NCBI GenBank assembly: GCA_013388555.1
Contig: JACAFD010000049.1
Location: forward strand, 1 to 35,833
Length of the DNA stretch: 35,833 nt
Reading direction: 5' to 3'
Source of the DNA: Nitrospirota bacterium
Lineage (GTDB): Bacteria > Nitrospirota > Nitrospiria > Nitrospirales > Nitrospiraceae
A program made the position numbers and the translations under genes. Of the stretch, positions 6,887 to 35,815 are shown in pieces (the stretch's first letter is position 1; every line of letters starts with the position of its first letter). A model generated the notes under the pieces. It saw only the letters and a list, made by a program, of their open reading frames with translations. It was not told the DNA's origin and ran no database searches.

Positions 6887-7621
6887 TCATGGTTCTGACG
6901 TCGGCGTCAAAAATCCCCAATCGGTTTGCCGCTGCATCACAGAGTACTCAATGGCTTTTTGCACGTTCCCTCCCCATCCGCGGAACTCGATGGACTCTTT
7001 CCCGTCATAGCGAAACTCGATTCCAAGCAGGAGGGTGCCGTCTCGTTCTGCAATATTCTTGATCGCGCCGGCAAGTTTCGAGATATGCCCGATCCCGATC
7101 AGCTCGAACTCTAAGTAAACCGTGGCACCTAACACCAGCTCGTCGGGTGCCCTCTTCAGCATAATCCGGCAACCGGACAGGCTGAGGTCTTGCAACAAGC
7201 CGCCGATGGGGGCCGGCCCATGCGCCAGGGTAAGCATCGCACCGCTTTGGGTAGTTTGACTCAGGAGCAACGGTTCGTTGCTGGCGACACGGGCGTGCTT
7301 ACGCAGATGGATCTCCTCGGTCCTCCGGGGAAATGCGAGGTACAGAAGGGGAAGCGGGGACATCTGCGTCATGCAGACTTCGCTCTGATACGCGACGAGC
7401 TTGCCGGCCACCATAGAACGAACGAGGCAGCGGGTTCCCGTTTCGCATGGAACCGCTTGCCCGAAATGGAACGGCCATTCGCAAATCAGCCAGGCCCGCT
7501 CTCTCCATCCCAGCAACGTGGACCCGCAGTTCACTGTGTCTTGACCGGATCCGATGACCAGCTGAAGTGGCAATCCAACCTTGAGAATAGAGGACTGTGC
7601 GGGAGCATGCTCTGGTTCCAT
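6887..7621 (-). CDS. YcgR-like PilZ c-di-GMP receptor, 244 aa
   Basis: The N-terminal ~100 residues form a beta-rich domain like the YcgR N-terminal domain. A PilZ domain follows with the two ligand motifs: R-x-x-x-R as RKHAR near residue 107, and D-x-S-x-x-G as DLSLSG near 144. Both motifs are intact, so c-di-GMP binding is likely. Proteins of this build act as flagellar brakes or as adaptors for c-di-GMP. The ATG overlaps the stop of the upstream HD-GYP gene by one base (TAATG), with AGGAAG eight bases ahead, so the two are translationally coupled. Its neighbour could lower the same ligand. The C-terminal 30 residues carry no recognised feature. Confidence 0.82.
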   Translation of the reverse strand: MEPEHAPAQSSILKVGLPLQLVIGSGQDTVNCGSTLLGWRERAWLICEWPFHFGQAVPCETGTRCLVRSMVAGKLVAYQSEVCMTQMSPLPLLYLAFPRRTEEIHLRKHARVASNEPLLLSQTTQSGAMLTLAHGPAPIGGLLQDLSLSGCRIMLKRAPDELVLGATVYLEFELIGIGHISKLAGAIKNIAERDGTLLLGIEFRYDGKESIEFRGWGGNVQKAIEYSVMQRQTDWGFLTPTSEP

Positions 7622-8844
7622 TATGCCGCTTCCTTATCAAGATAGGCGCGGGGATCGATCCCCAAAGTGGCCGGATCGAGGATCGACGCGATCGCCTGCT
7701 TCGGATGGTGAAACCGGGCTGCAAGGTCGAGATCGAGAGGAGTGGATCGATGGTGCCCGGCTTCATCCGTGATCAGTACGATCAGGGGTCGGAGTGGAGC
7801 CTGGTGATTGTATTGCTTCACAATCGCCCTCTCCCCGGTATTGAGCGAGACACAGGAACCGACAGGGTAGACCCCTACAACCTGCACGAACTGCTGGACC
7901 AATGTTCCGTCCACATGGCCTTGAGTTCCCAATTTATAGAGCATCTGAAGTGTATCGTGCGGTGTTTTCCCTTTGTGATAACAACGGTCACTCGTCACGG
8001 CATCGTAAATATCAACAATGGCGGCAATGAGACCGAACTGACTGAGGTCTGCTTTGGATCGTCGGTTGGGATACCCCGTCCCGTCGACGCGCTCATGGTG
8101 TTCCAGCGTGGCCTTCAGAAACATATCGTTGAGTCCGGTGGTATTCGACAGGATCTCCGCCCCGCGCAGGACATGTTGTTTCATGATCTCGAACTCGCCG
8201 GCCTCGTAGCGCCCCGGCTTATTCAGAATTTCCACCGGGATGAGTGTTTTGCCGATGTCGTGCAACAGCATGCCTGTTCCGAGCTGAAGCAATAGCACGC
8301 GCTCATACCCAAGATGTCTTCCGACCGACAGTGCCAGAGCCGACGTGTTGACGGAATGGAAGAACGTGTATTCGTCAAACTGCTTGAGGCGCGTCAAGCT
8401 GGTGAGTGCATCAGGGTTGCGCAGGATACTATCGGACATGTTTTCGACAACTTCACTGACTGCCTCCATATTCAACGCGCGGCCCATCCGGACGTCTTCC
8501 ATCGCCTGTTGGATGATCAGCTTTGCGGCTGTGTAGGCTCGTCTTGCCGCCGGCAGCTCTTCGACAAACGGGATGGTCGACGGTTCCGGCTTTAGGGGTG
8601 GCGCGATCGGCTGGGAGGGTTCAACCTCCGCAAGCATCGCCGGCGTGGCCGAGCCGGATTCCAGATCCACGCCGTCAGCCTCGACATCGAGATGTTGGAC
8701 ACCACTGGCATACAGTTGCTCGATTTGTATTGATGACGTAATCCTGAACCGATGACGCAAGAAGGGCGTAGCCAGCCAGGAGCGGTCAAGTTTCTCGACC
8801 GTCATGCCGATTTTCAGCTGATCGATGGAGATTCGCTTGCGCAT
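7621..8844 (-). CDS. HD-GYP domain c-di-GMP phosphodiesterase with N-terminal DUF3391, 407 aa
   Basis: The N-terminus (RKRISIDQLKIGMTVEKLD) is the DUF3391 domain often fused to HD-GYP proteins. The HD-GYP domain is complete: HDIGK at residues 195-199, HHERVDGTGYP starting at 249, then DIYDAVTSDR. All metal-ligand and GYP residues are present, so hydrolysis of c-di-GMP to pGpG or GMP is expected, in the cytoplasm. The C-terminal ~90 residues form the beta-rich tail usual in this subfamily. It overlaps the PilZ gene and faces a paralogue across a 369-bp divergent region that holds putative FliA promoters for both. It is likely a late motility-linked regulator. Confidence 0.88.
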   Translation of the reverse strand: MRKRISIDQLKIGMTVEKLDRSWLATPFLRHRFRITSSIQIEQLYASGVQHLDVEADGVDLESGSATPAMLAEVEPSQPIAPPLKPEPSTIPFVEELPAARRAYTAAKLIIQQAMEDVRMGRALNMEAVSEVVENMSDSILRNPDALTSLTRLKQFDEYTFFHSVNTSALALSVGRHLGYERVLLLQLGTGMLLHDIGKTLIPVEILNKPGRYEAGEFEIMKQHVLRGAEILSNTTGLNDMFLKATLEHHERVDGTGYPNRRSKADLSQFGLIAAIVDIYDAVTSDRCYHKGKTPHDTLQMLYKLGTQGHVDGTLVQQFVQVVGVYPVGSCVSLNTGERAIVKQYNHQAPLRPLIVLITDEAGHHRSTPLDLDLAARFHHPKQAIASILDPATLGIDPRAYLDKEAA

Positions 8845-8856
8845 CGTAACTTCTCG

Positions 8857-8934
8857 GGTAGATAGGCTGAAGGGGTTCAGGCTGAAGTATTCGGAGCTCC
8901 GGCCTTCAGCCTAAAAGCCCTCAGCCTATCTACC
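8857..8934. repeat. Intergenic inverted repeat, GGCTGAAG family
   Basis: A 14-bp perfect outer stem pairs 8857-8870 with 8921-8934. An inner stem pairs AGGCTGAAG at 8879-8887 with its complement at 8904-8912. The arms contain the short unit AGGCTGA more than once. It lies in the leader of the minus-strand HD-GYP gene, and the same unit recurs at 17476-17545. Function is unknown; hairpin formation in DNA or RNA is the direct reading. Confidence 0.75.
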
Positions 8935-8973
8935 TGTTAGGTACCATCGAACACCAACATGTCCTGATGGACT

Positions 8974-9000
8974 CTATCGGTGTCGAAGGGAGAATCTTGA
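8974..9000 (-). promoter_or_regulatory. Putative sigma-28 (FliA) promoter for the minus-strand HD-GYP gene
   Basis: On the minus strand, TCAAGATT, an 11-base spacer and ACCGATAG compare with TAAAGTTT-N11-GCCGATAA (6/8 and 6/8 or better). The start would be near 8967, giving a ~120-base leader that carries the inverted repeat at 8857-8934. Weaker than the csrA and flgM sites. Confidence 0.4.
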
Positions 9001-9071
9001 GTGGGCGGCAGGCAGGCAGTGTCTGTCCCGTTTTCCTTCTTCTGTCGCGCTTTTCCCGCCAGCCTTGCCCG

Positions 9072-9099
9072 TTAAGTTCAGCTCGCTTTATCCCGATAG
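9072..9099 (+). promoter_or_regulatory. Putative sigma-28 (FliA) promoter for the plus-strand HD-GYP gene
   Basis: TTAAGTTC, a 12-base spacer and CCCGATAG resemble the FliA consensus (6/8 in each half). The start would be near 9107, immediately before the hairpin at 9110. It is divergent from the site at 8974-9000. Both could be false positives on their own; the paired arrangement in front of two paralogues is the stronger argument. Confidence 0.4.
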
Positions 9100-9109
9100 C
9101 ATAGTGCGG

Positions 9110-9143
9110 GGACAGGCGCCGCCGACTGCGGCAGTGCCTGTCC
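9110..9143. repeat. GGACAGGC palindrome (REP-like) in the leader of the plus-strand HD-GYP gene
   Basis: GGACAGGC at 9110-9117 pairs with GCCTGTCC at 9136-9143, and inside it GCCGC (9118-9122) pairs with GCGGC (9128-9132). Related GACAGG and CTGTCCC words lie at 9023-9033 and 9157-9167. This looks like a repetitive extragenic palindrome and not a terminator, since no T run follows. Confidence 0.6.
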
Positions 9144-9177
9144 TACTGCTCCTCAGACAGGGACAGGGGCCAAAAAG

Positions 9178-9211
9178 AAGGCCGCCAGTCTCCAACAGAC
9201 CTAGGCGGCTT
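9178..9211 (+). promoter_or_regulatory. Hairpin overlapping the ribosome binding site of the HD-GYP gene at 9214
   Basis: AAGGCCGCC at the left pairs with GGCGGCTT at the right, with AGTCT/AGACCT as an imperfect inner stem. The right arm holds AGGCGG, the only Shine-Dalgarno-like word before the ATG at 9214. Folding would hide it. Whether this is regulatory (attenuator, thermometer) or chance is open. Confidence 0.4.
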
Positions 9212-9213
9212 AC

Positions 9214-10566
9214 ATGAGACGAGTGAAAACAATCACGATTGACCAACTCAAGCCAGGCATGTTCATTGTTGGAATGGACCAGCCTTGGTATCGAACTCCC
9301 TTCCTCATCCATAAACGATTCATTCGCGATACGAAAGAGATCGACCTGCTCCGACAGATTGGGGTCAGACAGCTGAAGATCGACTCCTGCCAAGGCCTCG
9401 ATGTGGAGCCGGAACCGTCAGTAGGCGCGGACCCGTCACCAGATACACAAGAAAAAACAGCCGTCGCTCCCCAGCTAAACCCTGTAGCGCAGCCTGCCTC
9501 GCCAGGAAAACTTTCACAACCCGCCTCCAACACCGAGCGGAGTGCAGCTCAGCCGCACGCGCCTGCCGCTCAGCAAGACACTCCGACCACATCGATCACA
9601 AAGGAACAGGCCGCAGCTGCCCAACAGACATATCACCAGGCGGTCCGGTCGATGGAACAGATGTTTGAAGAATTAGAATCAGGAAGAGTTCCCCGGCCGG
9701 ACAGGTTGCAGTTGGTCGTCTCGGATGTACTTACACGAGTGCTGGATGATGATGCCACCATGCTCAATATGCTCTCTCTTCAGAAGATGAAACGGTTCGA
9801 TCGCACATTGGCGTCGCACGCACTCGATGTCTGTACCCTCGCGCTCATTGTGGCGCATGACTATGGGATTGTGGAGGCAGAGCTGGAAGTGCTCGGCGCC
9901 GGTGCGTTGCTGCATGACATCGGCTACATCCGGTTGCCGCGGAATCTGTACCGTAGGAGCCACGACCTCACCGATCAAGAGCGCACAGTCATGCAACAAC
10001 ACCCTGCGCTGGGACTGGCGATCTTACGGGATGCGAAAGAGGACAGGAGCGCGGTCGTCCGGATTGTCATGGAACATCATGAATGCTGCGACGGGAGCGG
10101 ATTTCCGCATAAGCTTAAGGGAGACTCCCTCTCGATCTTGGCACAGCTGGTCGGCCTGGTAGATATCTATGACGGCATGGTGAGTCGCCGTGGAGGGCGC
10201 CCGGCGATGCTGCCGCATGATGCCATCCGACAGTTGTTTCGCCTGGGAGATACAGGACACTATCCAAAGGATCTGCTCCAAACTATGATCGGCAGTCTGG
10301 GCGTATATCCGATCGGCAGCCTGGTTTTGCTGAACACGGGAGAACGGGCTGTGGTTGTGGGAATGAATCGCACGCAGAGGCTCAAACCGGTCGTCAAAGT
10401 GATTACAGGGCCGCAGGGAGGGGCTTTTATCGTGCCGATCCGCATCGATCTTGGAGCGCAGGCGTCAGGGACATCAGCCCGGGCCATTACGAAGGTGCTG
10501 GACCCCCTGCATGAACGGGTGAATGTGGCCATGTTTCTTGACGGTATCCACGCAGAGGCGGCCTGA
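9214..10566 (+). CDS. HD-GYP-like protein with altered catalytic motifs, DUF3391 N-terminus, 450 aa
   Basis: Same architecture as the HD-GYP protein across the divergent gap: DUF3391 (RVKTITIDQLKPGMFIVGM), a Pro/Ala/Gln-rich linker at about residues 65-130, then HD-GYP. The motifs differ from a canonical enzyme. HDIGK reads HDIGY (234-238), and the HHExxDGxGYP stretch reads HHECCDGSGFP (288-298). The metal-ligand H, D and HHE residues remain, but the lysine and the GYP tyrosine are replaced. Activity may be reduced, or the protein may be a binding partner or sensor. Its stop overlaps the histidine kinase start (TGATG), so the two are coupled. The start is the first ATG, with AGGCGG six bases upstream. 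Confidence 0.85.
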   Translation: MRRVKTITIDQLKPGMFIVGMDQPWYRTPFLIHKRFIRDTKEIDLLRQIGVRQLKIDSCQGLDVEPEPSVGADPSPDTQEKTAVAPQLNPVAQPASPGKLSQPASNTERSAAQPHAPAAQQDTPTTSITKEQAAAAQQTYHQAVRSMEQMFEELESGRVPRPDRLQLVVSDVLTRVLDDDATMLNMLSLQKMKRFDRTLASHALDVCTLALIVAHDYGIVEAELEVLGAGALLHDIGYIRLPRNLYRRSHDLTDQERTVMQQHPALGLAILRDAKEDRSAVVRIVMEHHECCDGSGFPHKLKGDSLSILAQLVGLVDIYDGMVSRRGGRPAMLPHDAIRQLFRLGDTGHYPKDLLQTMIGSLGVYPIGSLVLLNTGERAVVVGMNRTQRLKPVVKVITGPQGGAFIVPIRIDLGAQASGTSARAITKVLDPLHERVNVAMFLDGIHAEAA

Positions 10567-14236: not shown

Positions 14237-14256
14237 CCGAATCACCCACCAGACTC

Positions 14257-14282
14257 TGTCGGCGTTTGCATTCAAAACTGTA
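14257..14282 (-). promoter_or_regulatory. Sigma-28 (FliA) promoter for csrA-fliW
   Basis: The minus strand reads TACAGTTT, an 11-base spacer, then GCCGACA, against the consensus TAAAGTTT-N11-GCCGATAA. Only two bases differ in the two blocks, and spacing is exact. Transcription would start near 14250, 33 bases before csrA. This places csrA and fliW in the latest flagellar class along with flgM. Confidence 0.75.
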
Positions 14283-14319: not shown

Positions 14320-14350
14320 GCTCAACCTCAACCTTAGCCTCAACCTATCT
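14320..14350. repeat. One-sided AGGYTR hexamer array after flgL
   Basis: On the minus strand, directly after the flgL stop, AGGTTG/AGGCTA-type hexamers run for about 30 bases. They are the same unit as in the inverted repeats at 16794-16880 and 25101-25180. The complementary arm is not present, so this looks like half an element. It sits beside the csrA promoter. Confidence 0.6.
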
Positions 14351-15272: not shown

Positions 15273-15363
15273 CAGGATAAGGTTAAAGCTCAGGCGGAGA
15301 CTAAGCTCCGGAGTTTCGCTCAACCTTAACCTCGACCTCAGCCTATCTCGCGCAGCTATCCTG
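15273..15363. repeat. Degenerate inverted repeat between flgK and flgL (AGGYTR family)
   Basis: CAGGATA at 15273-15279 pairs with TATCCTG at 15357-15363. Inside, one arm has GATAAGGTTA and the other its AGGYTR-type complement (CTCAACCTTAACCTC at about 15319-15333). A small CTCCGGAG palindrome is at the centre. Pairing is patchier than at 16794-16880, as if decayed. Confidence 0.6.
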
Positions 15364-16762: not shown

Positions 16763-16793
16763 GTGGCACTCCACCGGGTTGCCGCACTTGAAG

Positions 16794-16880
16794 AAGGTTG
16801 AGGGTAAGGTCAAGGTTGAGCAAAGATCGGATCTTCATCGTTTCACTCTCTGTCTCAACCTTAACCTCAGCCTCAACCTT
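16794..16880. repeat. Inverted repeat with hexameric arms between flgN and flgK
   Basis: Left arm 16794-16820 and right arm 16854-16880 are 27 bases each and complementary at 24 positions. Each arm is four tandem degenerate hexamers of the form AGGYTR. The loop is 33 bases. It would form a strong stem in the transcript between the flgN stop and the flgK start. No T run follows. Confidence 0.85.
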
Positions 16881-16892
16881 CCCCTCACGCCG

Positions 16893-17402: not shown

Positions 17403-17475
17403 GGCTTTGGTATCCGTGGAGTGTGAGAACGTGAAGCGTATCTCGTTTTCGCGCGAGACTCGCGAGGCGGGGTGA

Positions 17476-17545
17476 AGGCTGAAGACTGAAGGCTGAAGTG
17501 TTCGGATCTCCGATCTCTAGCCTTCAGCCTGCACCCCTTCAGCCT
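17476..17545. repeat. Inverted repeat, GGCTGAAG family, between flgM and flgN
   Basis: AGGCTGAAG occurs twice at 17476-17484 and 17490-17498. Its complement occurs twice at 17522-17530 and 17537-17545, so each arm contains a direct repeat and the arms pair. It shares the unit with 8857-8934. It begins 11 bp past the flgM stop. Confidence 0.8.
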
Positions 17546-17941: not shown

Positions 17942-17969
17942 GTATCGGCTACCGATTCTGAAAACTTGA
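17942..17969 (-). promoter_or_regulatory. Sigma-28 (FliA) promoter for flgM operon
   Basis: TCAAGTTT, a 12-base spacer and GCCGATAC match TAAAGTTT and GCCGATAA at 7 of 8 positions each; the spacer is one longer than the usual 11. The -10 block overlaps the flgJ stop codon. The start would be near 17935, with a ~77-base leader. Confidence 0.7.
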
Positions 17970-22115: not shown

Positions 22116-22186
22116 CTCGTCGTTCGTGAAGCGTGAAGCGTCAGAATCCGAAAACGAACGACGCTTCACGAGATACGTTTCACGCC
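22116..22186. repeat. Inverted repeat, GCGTGAAACG family, between flgF and flgG
   Basis: An 11-bp stem pairs CGTGAAGCGTC at 22132-22142 with 22160-22170. Outer copies of CGTGAAG / CGTTTCACG extend the arms. The unit GCGTGAA(A/G)CG repeats within each arm. It is the same family as 24141-24272 and 13457-13480. It ends at the flgF stop codon. Confidence 0.75.
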
Positions 22187-24140: not shown

Positions 24141-24272
24141 TGCGTGAAACATCGTTCGTGAAGCGTGAAACGTTTTTCGTTCCGGACTCAGAGGCTTCAC
24201 TCGCCGGAGGCGTTTTACGCATCTTTCGCATCTTGCCTGGCGCTTCACGCTTCACGAGATACGCTTCACGCG
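24141..24272. repeat. Inverted repeat, GCGTGAAACG family, between fliA and the GGDEF gene
   Basis: The left arm (24141-24172) has GCGTGAAAC, TTCGTGAAGCG and TGAAACG in a row. The right arm (24240-24272) is a close complement, including two copies of CGCTTCACG. About 26 of 31 positions pair. A ~67-base spacer separates them. The right arm ends at the fliA stop codon. No gene is seen in 24010-24272. Confidence 0.8.
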
Positions 24273-25067: not shown

Positions 25068-25227
25068 GCAGTATGCTGAAAAAGACCTCCAGCGTTATCG
25101 AAGGTCAAGGTTGAGGCTAAGGCTAAGGCTGAGCAAACACGAACCTGTTCGACGCTTAACCTTAACCTCGACCTAAGCCTACTTCATTCGCTGCGGCCTT
25201 GCGGGACGGCCTTTTTGAGCATCCTGT
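25068..25227. repeat. MITE-like element, copy A, with AGGYTR arms inside
   Basis: The ends are inverted: the left end has GCAGTATGCTGAAAAAG, and the right end has CCTTTTTGAGCATCCTG. Between them are AGGYTR-type arms at 25101-25134 and 25154-25180 (about 20 of 27 pair). Its first ~58 bases match the complement of copy D with about five differences. It fills most of the leader of fliA. No reading frame of note. Confidence 0.8.
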
Positions 25228-29646: not shown

Positions 29647-29772
29647 GCAGGATGCTGAAAAAGTCCGCCAGCAGCGTTCTCGCATCGTTCAGACCCTCAA
29701 CGTACCCCAGAGGGTACGCCTCGGTCCTTCACTCGCTGCGGCCTTGCTGGACGGCCTTTTTGAGCATCCTGC
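29647..29772. repeat. MITE-like element, copy B, between flhB and flhA
   Basis: Inverted ends GCAGGATGCTGAAAAAG and CCTTTTTGAGCATCCTGC enclose 126 bp. Inside is a hairpin: GTACCC at 29702-29707 pairs with GGGTAC at 29712-29717, and GACC/GGTC flank it. The flank on the flhB side (to about 29840) resembles the flank of copy C. It lies in the flhB-flhA gap of 219 bp. Confidence 0.85.
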
Positions 29773-33212: not shown

Positions 33213-33296
33213 CGTCTATCTGGTCTATTCGGTCTGTCTGGTCTTTTTGGTCGTCGGACGAAACTGACCAGATAGACCAAAGAGACTAGATAGACC
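33213..33296. repeat. Inverted repeat with GGTCTATC-type arms between fliN and fliO
   Basis: Left arm 33213-33243 and right arm 33266-33296 are 31 bases each and pair at about 26 positions. Each arm is a run of degenerate GTCTATCTG / GGTCT words. The loop is 22 bases. This unit occurs nowhere else in the window, but the architecture is that of the AGGYTR and GCGTGAA families. Confidence 0.85.
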
Positions 33297-35268: not shown

Positions 35269-35406
35269 CAGGATGCTGATATCCGGATGCTGAAAAAGTC
35301 CGCCAGCAGCGTTCTCGCCTCGAAAGCATCCTCAACGTAGCCAGAGGCTACGCCTCCGGTGCTTTCATCGACTGCGGCCTTGCTGGACGGCCTTTTTGAG
35401 CATCCT
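35269..35406. repeat. MITE-like element, copy C, in the fliL leader
   Basis: The ends are GGATGCTGAAAAAG and CCTTTTTGAGCATCC, with a short extra copy of GGATGCTGA at the left tip (35270-35279). Internal hairpin: GTAGCC at 35337-35342 pairs with GGCTAC at 35346-35351, and GAAAGCA (35322-35328) with TGCTTTC (35360-35366). Its flank (35407 to about 35475) resembles the flank of copy B. Confidence 0.85.
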
Positions 35407-35707: not shown

Positions 35708-35815
35708 CAGGCTGAGGTCGAGGTTAAGGTTGAGCAAAGATCTGATTATCTTTATCTCAACCTTAGCCTCAACCTTGACCTTCGATAGCGCTGGCGGACT
35801 TTTTCAGCATTCTGC
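35708..35815. repeat. MITE-like element, copy D (reverse orientation), with AGGYTR arms
   Basis: Arms 35708-35734 and 35756-35782 (27 bases each, about 21 pair) are made of AGGYTR hexamers. They are followed by a MITE end, GGACTTTTTCAGCATTCTGC, at 35796-35815. Its complement matches copy A for about 58 bases. The opposite MITE end is missing inside the window. Confidence 0.8.

Follow-up and report, generated by a model that had tools for sequence, protein, structure and literature searches.

Tandem-word palindromes in the intergenic gaps of Nitrospira-type bacteria and their possible DNA-level origin

The gaps between genes in Nitrospira-type genomes contain hairpins with a recurrent anatomy: a G-rich arm of degenerate tandem words of 6-9 nt, a short loop and a complementary C-rich arm. 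These hairpins are concentrated in the gaps, and orthologous gaps of different species carry hairpins of different words, sometimes nested in one another. Their mismatches show no wobble bias. One of the words, AGGYTR, also forms palindromes in a wide range of phyla. The variety of words in the same gaps, together with the presence of AGGYTR in distant phyla, points to the writing and spreading of hairpins at the DNA level, and not to a signal tuned in RNA. The explanation preferred here, and held with about even confidence, is that palindromes arrive in gaps as DNA and then decay. Most copies probably have no selected RNA role.

Hairpins of the window and of its genome

The window, meaning the whole 35,833 nt stretch that was analysed, is contig C201 of the host genome G000 (3.52 Mb). 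A preliminary description had named five AGGYTR places in it. All five are present as described and four of them fold with negative z, the array at 14320 being unfolded (Table 1). The palindrome that prompted the description lies within a gap placed by gene calling at 16763-16892. The 14320 array has lost its 3' partner arm in G000, but the arm is retained in the G005 ortholog. However, the original list of hairpins, although real, was incomplete, since the window has more tandem-arm hairpins made of other words. For most of the window hairpins tested, the RNA folds are far better than those of shuffled sequences.

Table 1. Tandem-arm palindromes and MITE-like elements of the window (no strand is assigned to any of them).
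Feature	Position	Location	Pairing, fold and remarks
GGCTGAA tandem-arm palindrome	8857-8934	divergent gap	27/31 pairs
One-sided AGGYTR array	14320-14350	flgL-csrA gap	not folding, z +0.5
Partly decayed AGGYTR palindrome	15273-15363	flgK-flgL gap	fold z -4.1
AGGYTR tandem-arm palindrome	16792-16881 (preliminary description, 16794-16880)	flgN-flgK gap	25/28 pairs; fold -57.7 kcal/mol, z -8.7
GGCTGAA tandem-arm palindrome	17469-17544	flgM-flgN gap	
GTGAARC palindrome	22126-22183	flgF-flgG gap	weak fold alone in G000 (z -0.84, stretch folded)
GTGAARC tandem-arm palindrome	24142-24271	between fliA and GGDEF gene	
MITE-like element TATGCTGAAAAAG ... GCCTTTTTGAGCATCC around AGGYTR core	25072-25224	flhG-fliA gap	
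AGGYTR palindrome, core of the longer MITE-like inverted repeat	25101-25180		fold z -5.1
MITE-like element, other core, no AGGYTR	29650-29769	flhB-flhA gap	
GGTTYRTYT tandem-arm palindrome	33213-33295	short flagellar gap	32/39 pairs
MITE-like element without AGGYTR core	35285-35405	upstream of fliL	
AGGYTR palindrome	35708-35782	upstream of fliL	fold z -7.6; followed by one MITE-like end at 35790-35812

The window has two other notable features. Sigma-28-like promoters (CAAGTTT-N11-GCCGATA) lie upstream of flgM (17944-17969, minus strand) and of csrA (about 14255-14280), and both can be aligned across most species. The hairpins of G000 and G005, and a hairpin in G019, are added directly upstream of the csrA promoter. 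At 7621-10566 there are two divergent genes for HD-GYP proteins with DUF3391, and their common gap has word hairpins in most of the species compared.

A search of G000 for three exact AGGYTR units gave 91 matches and the paired-arm pattern gave 46, while the reversed-word control gave none in either case. The genome-wide search for paired arms suggested in the preliminary description thus has a positive outcome. The association with flagellar genes is incidental; copies are found genome-wide. AGGYTR clusters fall in gaps in 51 of 53 cases, even though genes make up 80% of those loci, and an opposite arm lies within 60 nt at 30 of the 53 places. The earlier statement that the copies are intergenic is supported.

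AGGYTR hairpins belong to a wider class: the genus, Nitrospira in the broad sense, has tandem-arm palindromes of at least eight kinds that are interchangeable with one another. Sampled stretches of Nitrospira-type genomes, some picked for flagellar synteny or for proximity to AGGYTR matches and the rest not, were scanned for inverted repeats of at least 15 pairs irrespective of word. Gaps contain 0.9-1.4 of these per kb, compared with 0.06 per kb in genes and 0.03 per kb in shuffled DNA. The contrast between gaps and genes (about 20 times) is also seen in a larger sample that includes nearly 500 kb of coding sequence. There, strongly tandem arms with periods of 6, 7, and 9 are present in 46 of the 93 inverted repeats found in gaps and in none after shuffling. 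The recurring words are AGGYTR, GTGAARC, GGTTYRTYT, GGCTGAA, GGCGAGA, GTTCTGA or GTGCTGA, GTGATGA, AGCTAATAGC, and GTTTCTGG. Their variable letters are mostly transitions. A strict GTGAARC pattern has few exact matches because its units are irregular. Further degenerate arrays of the GGAGGTTGG / CCTCCAACC type adjoin AGGYTR arrays in L032-L068 (e.g., L035, L054).

Two aspects of the arrangement recur among these hairpins. Of 82 hairpins with tandem arms in gaps, 78 have the G-rich arm (G>C) on the 5' side. In addition, 46 hairpins are closer to the upstream stop codon and 16 to the next start, which fits a role at the 3' end and avoidance of promoters alike.

Some AGGYTR palindromes are associated with a longer repeat. 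Its ends, GGATGCTGAAAAAGTCCGCCAGC ... GGACGGCCTTTTTGAGCATCC, have about 118 matches in G000, and AGGYTR arrays lie close to such an end at about 24 of their 53 places. The repeat has terminal inverted ends, and A5...T5 flanks G+C-rich stems on both strands. It is therefore best described as MITE-like with terminator-like ends. Among the AGGYTR copies of the window, 25101 is inside such a repeat and 35708 is beside one end, whereas the hairpins at 14320, 15273, and 16794 are bare, with no MITE-like ends. This bears on the earlier remark that the palindromes lack T runs. It is correct for the bare hairpins, but not for 25101, which is enclosed by A5...T5 ends on both strands, nor for 35708, which is adjoined by one such end.

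Comparison between species adds to this picture of the outer repeat. The flhB-flhA gap holds a MITE-like copy in G000 and is only 14-34 nt long in five other species compared. Conversely, the flgL-csrA gap of G005 has an extra composite of MITE-like repeat and AGGYTR that is absent from G000, and GGGCG...GGGTG at this insertion may be a target duplication. Terminal inverted repeats, high copy number and insertion polymorphism were found together for the outer repeat only, and no target duplication was seen for the bare hairpins. In L049 (1973-3229), a gene of 283 aa has a composite element on either side. The two elements are inverted, nearly identical and alike in their loop, which could permit inversion of the enclosed gene.

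Different words in the same gap, the same word in different phyla

The flgF-flgG gap illustrates how freely the words vary. Between the flgF stop codon and the flgG ribosome site, every species except G004 has a hairpin (17 of 18), and at least six words are used: GTGAARC in seven species, GTGATGA in four, AGCTAATAGC in three, and GGCGAGA, GCGAGACG, and GGTTTGTTT in one each. This near-full occupancy hints at selection for a hairpin there, in a gap that was picked after looking. The flgK-flgL gap has GGTTYRTYT in most species, AGGYTR in G000, GTGAAA in G042 and no hairpin in G023 or G004. Other orthologous gaps likewise vary in their hairpin word.

How might one word give way to another? One clue is nesting. 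At the gap orthologous to 8857-8934, other species have a GGCTGAA hairpin, and in G019 its arms enclose a GTGAAGC hairpin. G013 provides a second case, a GTGAAGC hairpin with a GTTTC hairpin inside it. Nesting may offer a direct route to word replacement, with the order of events deduced from the sequences.

Occupancy by hairpins is clustered by gap (P 0.003). However, with each distinct word in a gap counted as one arrival, 11 repeat arrivals were observed and 10.9 are expected from random throws, so the idea that conserved positions are re-filled by new words was rejected. The clustering is explained by shared ancestry. The re-filling counts do not support positional selection of hairpins.

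The AGGYTR word reaches well beyond Nitrospira. A species-level collection was scanned for AGGTTRAGGYTR-N6-36-YARCCTYARCCT, for which about ten or fewer chance matches are expected in the whole collection (our own arithmetic, with equal base frequencies). Among the matches listed are Nitrospirota, Desulfobacterota and Geobacter relatives, Bacteroidota, Firmicutes, Chloroflexi, Aminicenantes, Omnitrophota, WOR-3, Latescibacterota, Nitrospinota, and others. Eighty loci from the matches listed were examined; most have further AGGYTR units beyond the pattern, and a rough gene call places 70 of the 80 palindromes in gaps. Two cultured Bacteroidota, Chryseobacterium taichungense and Anaerophaga thermohalophila, have AGGYTR hairpins, which argues against a binning artefact. 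The AGGYTR loci of other phyla also have hairpins of still other words. Palindromes with tandem arms of AT-rich words (AATTTTG, AGCTTTC, AGTCAAT) occur in other phyla as well (L131 66-170 and 5952-6030; L174 1050-1150; L180 6499-6570).

Transcript signal or DNA process

Selection for pairing in the transcript predicts that G-U mismatches outnumber A-C mismatches on the sense strand. Over 93 hairpins from co-directional gaps, there are 123 of the former and 125 of the latter (P 0.95), in a test that has no internal positive control and takes its force from general knowledge of RNA helices. Scored by element, the bias is to G-U in 39 and to A-C in 37. Therefore, RNA pairing is not visibly under selection, and a wobble asymmetry indicating RNA-level selection is absent. 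Divergent gaps are not occupied less often than others, albeit in a small sample (10/26 divergent, 9/23 convergent and 68/259 co-directional).

The arms themselves can be compared with their orthologs. In the same columns of four orthologous sets, mismatch within hairpins and difference between species are 0.21 vs. 0.22, 0.11 vs. 0.11, 0.13 vs. 0.13, and 0.05 vs. 0.02. Arm mismatch is thus not below the species difference, being equal in three sets and larger in the fourth, and concerted change of the arms is not visible. The best hint of such change is in the flgK-flgL set, where five pairs have double changes and there is a mild excess of G-U (21 vs. 12).

What if the hairpins act in the mRNA after all? 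They could be intercistronic RNA structures under selection that separate or stabilise segments of operon transcripts, with any stem-forming word sufficing and words being exchanged. The occupancy of the flgF-flgG gap by at least six words, folds that mostly far exceed shuffles, and the nearness of hairpins to stop codons would all agree with this. However, the sense strand does not prefer G-U over A-C, divergent gaps are equally occupied, gaps are not re-hit by words more often than at random, and one arm has been lost singly at 14320. This reading is considered rather unlikely, and the mRNA stabilisation or expression tuning proposed in the preliminary description is not borne out by the same counts. 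Transcription termination, in one or both directions, is quite improbable as a general explanation. It would suit the MITE-like outer repeat, whose G+C-rich stems have A5...T5 around them on both strands, and the hairpin between the flgL stop codon and the sigma-28-like promoter of csrA. Yet just 6 of 93 hairpins have TTTT in the 12 nt that follow them (2 of 93 on the other side), a T run directly after the stem is characteristic of the outer repeat only, divergent gaps are not depleted, and many copies separate co-directional flagellar genes. The earlier view that ordinary terminators do not explain the palindromes is upheld to the extent that terminators alone are insufficient.

Slippage is the usual idea for heptamer repeats (PMC4692102; PMC4679880), and tandem arms of 6-9 nt units invite it. 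In this scenario, a short palindromic seed has its arms lengthened by repeat slippage while correction of one arm by the other preserves the pairing; the preliminary description likewise proposed arms that grow or shrink by slippage with pairing maintained. The data speak against it, since the 14320 arm was lost alone and arm mismatch is no smaller than the species difference in the four sets compared; words common to distant phyla are also not expected from a local process. Such an origin is improbable. A chromosome- or RNA-binding protein that reads arrays of G-first words might account for the same AGGYTR word in many phyla, and convergent G-rich arrays are known from Xanthomonas too (PMC4692102). 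However, the words lack a common core, differing greatly both among species and inside a single genome, and there is no candidate protein, which makes protein binding sites very improbable.

The explanation preferred here is DNA-level arrival followed by decay. New hairpins would arrive in intergenic gaps, where some would settle in an existing hairpin's loop or form the core of a MITE-like repeat. Arrival would probably take place at the DNA level, with one arm serving as the template for the other, through either fold-back or a mobile process that recognises structure. Pairing would then be lost through ordinary mutation, mostly transitions. Genes would stay free of hairpins through selection against gene damage, and the position just past the stop codon may result from avoidance of promoters and ribosome sites. 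Several observations do not fit easily. There is no match over the cut-off to a mobilising enzyme (Y1 transposase) in G000 and no target duplication at bare hairpins, and the flgF-flgG occupancy (17/18) hints in the other direction. Likewise, the flgK-flgL double changes and mild G-U excess count against DNA-level arrival, and the stop codon proximity (46 vs. 16) is also expected from a function at the 3' end.

A bolder and improbable version of DNA-level arrival is that bacteria share a conserved, so far undescribed process by which G-first tandem words are written into gaps together with their complement, such as fold-back copying or templated, telomerase-like synthesis. If true, this would explain why one degenerate word forms hairpin arms in many unrelated phyla and why one genus has several words.

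Relation to known repeats

The outer GGATGCTGAAAAAG...CTTTTTGAGCATCC repeat resembles MITEs in its terminal inverted ends, its many copies and its presence or absence between sister species. In contrast, copies of the bare AGGYTR hairpins have no common ends beyond the words. REP and REPIN elements with their RAYT transposases are also abundant extragenic palindromes. They are characterised by a conserved palindrome with a fixed tetranucleotide guide. The present hairpins have no conserved element sequence: the arms are tandem words, copies have only the degenerate words in common, and loops and flanks vary. G000 has no match to the Y1 transposase family (PF01797) over the cut-off, and a RAYT/REP origin was rejected on this ground. 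A lone Y1-transposase-like fragment below the Pfam cut-off was noted at a contig end (L031 / L069, G000 C138).

Closer relatives are found among tandem-word repeats. The GGGAATC heptamers of Xanthomonas (and GGGGA(C/T)T of Nostoc) are degenerate tandem words, about 90% of them intergenic, and 70-75 cases per genome are convergent G-rich arrays that form inverted repeats (Rehm et al., 2015; PMC4692102). They lie closer to the 5' neighbour ORF (28 vs. 160 nt). Sister species have them in the same gaps with varied length and sequence, and they have no known function. That work describes one word per lineage with G3 tracts, focuses on G-quadruplexes, and reports under-representation between divergent ORFs (PMC4692102). 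Tandem degenerate 6-9 nt intergenic words and convergent G-first arms (78/82) are common to both. Here, however, at least eight words occur in one genus, orthologous gaps carry different words, and hairpins nest within each other as well as inside a MITE-like repeat. Most words are without G3 tracts, the units of AGGYTR, GTGAARC, and GGTTYRTYT having G1-G2 only. Divergent gaps are not short of hairpins as they are in Xanthomonas (10 of 26 occupied, not fewer than others, in a small sample).

Two further systems share single traits. The P6b stem of the Nostoc trnL(UAA) group I intron is built of degenerate heptamers whose classes are exchanged as whole blocks between lineages, with side stem-loop insertions (Kaasalainen et al., 2015; PMC4476775). 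It is like the present hairpins in its word-built stem and word exchange, but it is a single site in an intron RNA and not a genome-wide feature of gaps. The TAACTGA heptamers of Beggiatoaceae are intergenic and common to distant phyla with no evident mechanism of transfer (MacGregor, 2015; PMC4679880). This matches the cross-phylum spread of AGGYTR. Unlike the palindromes, they are direct repeats just upstream of starts and almost never inverted (PMC4679880).

A literature search for the AGGYTR string found no related description; subscription journals were mostly outside its reach, and a prior description is possible. What seems to be new is the combination of many exchangeable words in one genus, nesting, palindromes of one word over many phyla and no RNA signature. 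Tandem-word repeats have so far been described per word and per lineage, as in Xanthomonas, Nostoc, and Beggiatoaceae. Many words per gap, a cross-phylum word, the G-first rule and the missing wobble signature suggest instead one general phenomenon with a cause at the DNA level. The long-standing puzzle of intergenic heptamer repeats thereby becomes testable by comparative genomics and simple genetics.
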